Below, piece after piece: positions 12,101-13,003 of a stretch of 39,809 nucleotides of DNA (position 1 is the stretch's first letter; each line of letters begins with the position of its first letter). The stretch is from contig VBJD01000039.1 in NCBI GenBank assembly GCA_005887995.1, forward strand, positions 1 to 39,809, given 5' to 3'. The notes beneath the pieces were generated by a model. That model was not told the DNA's origin. It saw only the letters and a list, made by a program, of their open reading frames with translations, and searched no databases. This stretch comes from Chloroflexota bacterium (lineage in GTDB: Bacteria > Chloroflexota > Limnocylindria > P2-11E). Both the position numbers and the translations under genes were made by a program.

Positions 12101-12718
12101 TTACCGCGCGGGATTGATCTTCTCGACGACGAGCCAATCGCCGGTCGTGCGACCGGCAGCGTACGCGGAGTTCCAGTTCTTCAGCACGACGCGCTTGAAT
12201 CCCTGCTGCCCGAGGGTGTCGCGCCAGGAGCGAAGACCGCGGGCGACGTACGGCGTCAGGCGCACGTTGAGGCTCGGCGCGAGTACGCCTTCGAGGTGGC
12301 GCCGGCGCTCGAGCAGCGGCACCTCGATGAGCGAGTCGCCGTCGACCTCGAGGAGATCGAACGCCGCGAAGATGCGCCGGCCGCCCGTCGGCCTGGTGAT
12401 CGCGTTGCCGTTCGCGTCGATCTCGAGCTCCTCCTCGTCCTGCCACGCGTCGACGAGCACGCCGTCGAAGATGGCAGTCGTCGCCCGCGTGTCGGCCACG
12501 ATCGCGTCGTACAGCTCGCGCGGCCCCTCGATGCCTCCGGCATAGCCGACATAGCGAGGACCGTCATGACCCACTCGGACGAGCGCCCGCGTCCCGCTCC
12601 ACTCTGGCTCGAGGATGTGGCCCTCTGGCTCCGGGCGCTCGCGCACGTAGCGCGGCCGCTGCGGCAACAGGTCCGCTGAAATGGCGTTTTTCAAGGGTTT
12701 TCCGGCCGAGTATCCCAC
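12101..12718 (-). CDS. Degenerate ATP-dependent DNA ligase-like (nucleotidyltransferase-fold) protein, no OB domain
   Basis: Ligase-like layout EPEWSGTRALV (motif I position, K replaced by E), FDGVLVDA (III), IFAAFDLLEVDGDSLIEVPLLERRRHLEGVL (IIIa), GFKRVVLKNWNSAYAAGRTTGDWLVVEKI (IV/V region); ends right after. GTG start at 12718 uncertain. Confidence 0.65.
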   Translation of the reverse strand: MGYSAGKPLKNAISADLLPQRPRYVRERPEPEGHILEPEWSGTRALVRVGHDGPRYVGYAGGIEGPRELYDAIVADTRATTAIFDGVLVDAWQDEEELEIDANGNAITRPTGGRRIFAAFDLLEVDGDSLIEVPLLERRRHLEGVLAPSLNVRLTPYVARGLRSWRDTLGQQGFKRVVLKNWNSAYAAGRTTGDWLVVEKINPAR

Positions 12719-12722
12719 CCTC

Positions 12723-12765
12723 TTGACAGGCAGAACAGACGTTCTAGAGTGCGAACGTCCGTTCG
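12723..12765 (+). promoter_or_regulatory. Sigma70-type promoter overlapped by two GAAC-N4-GTTC (SOS/LexA-type) boxes
   Basis: TTGACA (12723-12728), 16-nt spacer, TAGAGT (12745-12750); box 1 AGAACAGACGTTCT (12732-12745), box 2 CGAACGTCCGTTCG (12752-12765). Confidence 0.7.
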
Positions 12766-12790
12766 AACCATGTCTGAGGGGAGCTCTGAA

Positions 12791-13003
12791 ATGGCCATCG
12801 CCACGGTCGCCGTCCTTGTCACTCCGTCTCCACGCAACAGCGCGGCGGTCTCGCCTTCCCGAGTGCCGCCGCGCGTCTATACCCCCTACCCGACGCGTCG
12901 GCTCACCCGGCCGATGGCGGTTCGGGCCGACGCGGAAGCGGCGAGCGGGACCACTGGCCGGTCGCGCTTGCCGTTCTTCCGCGGACGGCGCGAACGCAGC
13001 TAG
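12791..13003 (+). CDS. Small basic hypothetical protein (70 aa), predicted SOS-controlled
   Basis: ATG with GAGGGGAG SD at 7-nt spacing downstream of the promoter; MAIATVAVLVTPSPRNSAAVSPSRVPPRVYTPYPTRRLTRPMAVRADAEAASGTTGRSRLPFFRGRRERS. Confidence 0.55.
   Translation: MAIATVAVLVTPSPRNSAAVSPSRVPPRVYTPYPTRRLTRPMAVRADAEAASGTTGRSRLPFFRGRRERS

Follow-up and report, generated by a model that had tools for sequence, protein, structure and literature searches.

A predicted LexA-repressed promoter with two operator boxes precedes a conserved gene for a small basic protein in Chloroflexota

Introduction

The motif GAAC-N4-GTTC has been stated for LexA/DinR operators (PMC3323433), and several LexA boxes are present on a single promoter, P1, in phage GIL01 (PMC4551915). 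SOS division inhibitors differ between lineages and have little sequence in common; those known from Gram-positive bacteria contain a membrane span, and their genes are usually adjacent to lexA (PMC6851548). Full-text literature searches found no paper describing a LexA regulon in Chloroflexota. We analyzed a 39,809-nucleotide stretch of contig VBJD01000039.1 from a Chloroflexota bacterium (hereafter "the window"), in which one promoter carries two GAAC-N4-GTTC palindromes ahead of a short gene. The LexA operator is of the known GAAC-N4-GTTC kind and multi-box promoters are known; the family of the target protein is new.

Results

Two palindromic boxes on one promoter

The window contained only two exact GAAC-N4-GTTC sites, both at one promoter (Table 1). 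AGAACAGACGTTCT (12732-12745) and CGAACGTCCGTTCG (12752-12765) are centred at 12738.5 and 12758.5, 20 bp apart, and the 12-mers of the two boxes are almost one word if read in opposite orientation (GAACAGACGTTC vs. GAACGGACGTTC). Two exact boxes separated by no more than 40 bp were found in 0 of 400 Markov-1 random windows. The first-pass annotation had described a pair of such palindromes with this spacing, laid over TTGACA-N16-TAGAGT so that one was in the spacer and the other at the expected start site, and had considered so close a pair very unlikely by chance. The sequence agreed with this description at every coordinate, and the random windows bore out the estimate of chance. GGGGAG or GGGGTG was found again ahead of the start codon in relatives.

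Table 1. Features of the predicted LexA-controlled promoter and its flanking genes in the window
Feature	Position	Strand	Basis
Pseudo-ligase (adenylation domain of ATP-dependent DNA ligase, catalytic residues absent)	12101-12696	-	Pfam PF01068; start TTG 12696 or GTG 12718
Probable -10 element of divergent gene, GATACT on minus strand	12711-12716	-	GGATACTC conserved in many relatives
-35 element, TTGACA	12723-12728	+	Sequence; same in 19/19 double-box relatives
LexA box 1 (predicted), GAACAGACGTTC	12733-12744	+	In 16-bp -35/-10 spacer; exact match, 23.5 bits
-10 element, TAGAGT	12745-12750	+	Sequence; relatives have TATCAT, TATTAT, TAATAT
LexA box 2 (predicted), GAACGTCCGTTC	12753-12764	+	Over expected start site (about 12757); exact match, 14.5 bits
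Likely ribosome-binding site, GGGGAG	12778-12783	+	7 nt before ATG; sequence
Target gene, 70-aa basic protein, core RVPPRVYTPYPTRRLTRPMAV	12791-13000 (stop to 13003)	+	Alignments, pN/pS, profile hits

The host LexA and its operator

The host genome (3.02 Mb in 231 contigs, 87% complete) encodes one full LexA (TIGR00498, 206 bits; domains PF01726 and PF00717). The Ala-Gly cleavage site (AAGEP), the catalytic Ser (GKSM) and the Lys (TLKRF) are all kept in this protein, and it matched solved LexA structures. On the lexA promoter itself, GAACATCCGTTC occupies the spacer between -35 and -10, as box 1 does, and is located 47 bp ahead of the start of the lexA match. The layout is TTGACA-N3-box-GGTATGGT, which reads TTGACATCA-GAACATCCGTTC-GGTATGGT, and this box recurs at this position in the lexA promoters of congeners. 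A search of the host genome revealed 46 exact GAAC-N4-GTTC sites, vs. 11 for a reversed-pattern control. Sites with a fuller consensus preceded uvrB, rmuC, and the genes for a PHP-domain DnaE polymerase, a DnaB-type helicase and a RecA-like/ImuA-like protein; such sites also preceded a serine recombinase and an Hrq1-like helicase.

A weight matrix was trained on 13 SOS-type sites from the host and its relatives, with the window excluded. Among the exact sites, 12 formed a cluster with scores of at least 22.5 bits, and the others formed a tail. Box 1 was inside the top cluster, level with the sites of uvrB and rmuC, and in a congener its word is found upstream of the RecA-like/ImuA-like gene; box 2 scored below box 1 and the classic sites. 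These findings support the identification of GAAC-N4-GTTC as the operator of the host LexA, since the motif is present on the promoter of lexA itself and at classical SOS genes. The first-pass annotation had proposed that the operator be derived from the promoters of lexA and recA. This held for lexA but not for recA: in four congeners including the host (L122-L125), no box was found within 400 bp upstream of recA, even with one mismatch. In those congeners lexA and the RecA-like/ImuA-like paralogue, unlike recA, do carry the box. The recA gene thus appears to be outside the regulon and, because it has no recognisable box, the induction circuit may differ from that of textbook SOS.

Several other sites were observed. 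The DnaB-type replicative helicase gene has a LexA box that ranks among the best in the genome (L055:2071; host contig C122:12270) and is an unusual SOS target. A second two-box locus, with boxes 34 bp apart, precedes a DEAD/Hrq1-like helicase gene on host contig C107 (L053:2049 and 2083). Boxes at L036:747, L052:2066 and L070:2035, two of them strong, adjoin short ORFs that encode zinc-finger-like CxxC motifs; one of these ORFs had a very weak match to HNH endonuclease. The loci may be mobile or homing elements linked to damage.

The divergent gene

The gene divergent from the target gene encodes a pseudo-ligase. Foldseek assigned it the ligase fold. The motif I Lys is replaced by Glu, Asp or Ala in all 20 aligned members (EPEW, EPDW or EPAW, vs. 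GKW in LigD), and a profile alignment with Mycobacterium tuberculosis LigD placed the replaced residue at the motif I Lys. Motifs III and IV are also altered, with loss of Glu. Judged by these residues, the product is predicted to be catalytically dead. Close homologues of the pseudo-ligase were confined to the same order; a more distant homologue that also lacks the Lys belongs to a different family of the class (L163).

The double operator could be a shared switch for the small gene and the pseudo-ligase gene, which would then form a two-gene damage-inducible unit. Box 1 of the window overlaps the position expected for the -35 element of the minus-strand promoter. Wherever both genes were recovered they are adjacent and divergent, and this holds for another family of the order as well. 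However, in L028 and L106 the -10 element of the pseudo-ligase gene is located about 40 bp further away and clear of the boxes, with the promoter of the small gene unchanged. The downstream Band_7 gene, convergent to the small gene, also stays adjacent, so plain synteny accounts for the gene pairing. Co-occurrence was therefore set aside as proof of a functional pair with the pseudo-ligase: gene order is kept throughout the neighbourhood, and the missing genes seem to reflect assembly gaps. Because the pseudo-ligase gene has an apparent -10 element of its own, clear of the boxes in two relatives, we consider shared control possible but unlikely, and do not favour it; LexA control of the pseudo-ligase is doubtful and probably not consistent among relatives.

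The small basic protein

Homologues of the small protein are 65-93 aa long and have the common core WRxPPRVY[ST]P...RR..RPMAVP. In a search of 177 genomes of the class, a protein profile had one match in each of 27, with E values down to 1e-26. Twenty-six of these genomes belong to one family and one to a sister family, all within one order. Two genomes of the family had no profile match; in one the contig ends beside the locus, and the other also lacks the neighbour gene, so that the absences look like assembly gaps. Weak protein matches elsewhere in the phylum (G494, G508) were rejected; they had neither the box nor a matching protein core. No match to the small protein was found in Pfam, NCBIfam, PHROG or PDB sequences. 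The first-pass annotation had predicted that the products would not be those of classical SOS genes, which was right for this unit: the product is a small protein of an undescribed family. The family is conserved wherever the locus is readable, and the protein is therefore probably a component of the bacterial DNA-damage response that is new and specific to this lineage.

AlphaFold returned an unstructured chain (pLDDT 64, pTM 0.16), and the protein is accordingly predicted to be disordered. The protein in the window has a pI of about 12; members had a median pI of 12, a charge of +11, 14% Pro and 18% Arg. No membrane span was detected by hydropathy in 24 members, in which the best 19-residue value had a median of 0.54 and a maximum of 1.31, below the usual membrane threshold. 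These values bear on whether the protein might be an SOS inhibitor of cell division, akin to YneA, SosA, ChiZ and SidA. Its size and predicted SOS control fit such a role; however, no segment reaches the membrane threshold, and lexA is on contig C122 whereas the small gene is on C71. We regard this role as improbable, although still a candidate.

In close relatives, pN/pS was 0.08-0.52 in frame and mostly >1 in shifted frames; the small ORF is under purifying selection as a coding sequence. The small gene ends at the end of the convergent Band_7 ORF (13000), and transcriptional read-through would be antisense to Band_7, but a functional RNA, e.g. such an antisense with the small ORF incidental, is very hard to reconcile with the in-frame constraint, the conserved start context and ribosome-binding site, and the recovery of the family by a protein profile.

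Conservation of the promoter

The relatives are uncultivated Chloroflexi represented by MAGs; soil-depth samples supplied many of these and groundwater supplied one. The double-box promoter pattern was present in 19 of the 177 genomes of the class, once per genome and at the same locus, with 0 control hits. TTGACA, both half-sites of box 1, and the T, A and last T of the -10 element were invariant in all 19. The first-pass annotation had made its reading depend on conservation of the boxes in close relatives, and every family member inspected did have at least one box upstream of the small gene. Box 2 was kept at a spacing of 20-22 bp in most genera. Genera g6 and g8 and one g7 genome had a single box only, and the other remaining members had two boxes at different spacings. 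Box 2 is thus not essential to the unit. In single-box relatives (L021, L026, L029, L030, L093), the small protein starts only about 10 nt past the -10 element, an arrangement that suggests a leaderless mRNA.

Across relatives, the half-sites and the last core base of box 1 are fixed and the rest of the core is variable. This pattern fits LexA and not a dedicated repressor. Many TetR operators are similar palindromes, and the two box words here are near-identical in opposite orientation, but ownership of the palindromes by a local non-LexA repressor, e.g. of the TetR type, is most improbable given the freely varying core, the absence of a regulator gene among the immediate neighbours, and the presence of the same motif on lexA and repair genes.

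When the collection was searched with the promoter pattern, other double-box promoters preceded different genes, which were named by eye: a small HTH-like gene (SAR202), a LexA-like gene (betaproteobacterial MAG) and a radical-SAM photolyase-like gene (another Chloroflexi MAG). In marine Chloroflexi, one of them SAR202 (L110:1943-1986, L113, L115), the same double-box promoter precedes the gene for a 109-aa helix-turn-helix-looking protein.

Discussion

The promoter is very probably LexA-repressed and damage-inducible, with occlusion by LexA that would be relieved through RecA-stimulated self-cleavage. The lexA gene, the motif, the promoter geometry, its conservation and the selection on the protein can be read from the sequence; from these we infer LexA binding, induction and a function for the protein. 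In the undamaged cell, LexA dimers on the two boxes, one in the -35/-10 spacer and the other over the start site, would exclude RNA polymerase, and this pairing of boxes may provide tight repression. Upon damage, RecA filaments on DNA would stimulate self-cleavage of LexA, and both boxes would be vacated. The strong promoter would then give a single-gene mRNA and a very basic, disordered cytosolic protein of ~70 aa. As a last step, the W-R-x-P-P-R-V-Y-[ST]-P...R-P-M-A-V-P core might bind a partner within the damage response; candidate partners are nucleic acids and proteins of replication, repair, division or translation.

A more speculative proposal, which we put forward tentatively as an outside prospect, is that the protein founds a new class of SOS effectors. 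Such a peptide, disordered and rich in Pro and Arg, would act via a short linear motif rather than a membrane span or an enzyme fold, e.g. by pausing translation or binding the replisome, perhaps with the divergent dead ligase as partner. Its core is reminiscent of proline-rich ribosome-tunnel peptides.

The unit points to an uncharacterised, conserved, predicted SOS-controlled protein family in Chloroflexota. The analysis supplies an operator motif and a list of about ten genes predicted to belong to the regulon, and it singles out one candidate effector specific to the lineage.

With the LexA/DinR operators of Firmicutes and Actinobacteria, the host system has in common the palindrome, its position in the promoter and a complete set of LexA catalytic residues. 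It differs in its phylum, Chloroflexota, in having a promoter with two boxes spaced by 20 bp, and in that recA is apparently outside the regulon. The set of LexA boxes on one promoter is a likeness to GIL01 P1; however, the unit described here is a chromosomal, conserved, single-gene unit, and no phage genes were present among the scanned ORFs of the window. The pseudo-ligase has the adenylation-domain fold and the FDLL and NS-Y motifs in common with the LigD-type ligase (1vs0), but is stand-alone, about 200 aa long, and has lost the motif I Lys and the motif III/IV Glu. Small size, lineage-specificity and SOS control, the last of these predicted for the small protein, are features in common with YneA, SosA, ChiZ, DivS and SidA (PMC6851548). 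In contrast to them, the small protein has neither a membrane span nor LysM and is not encoded adjacent to lexA; it is strongly basic and rich in Pro and Arg.
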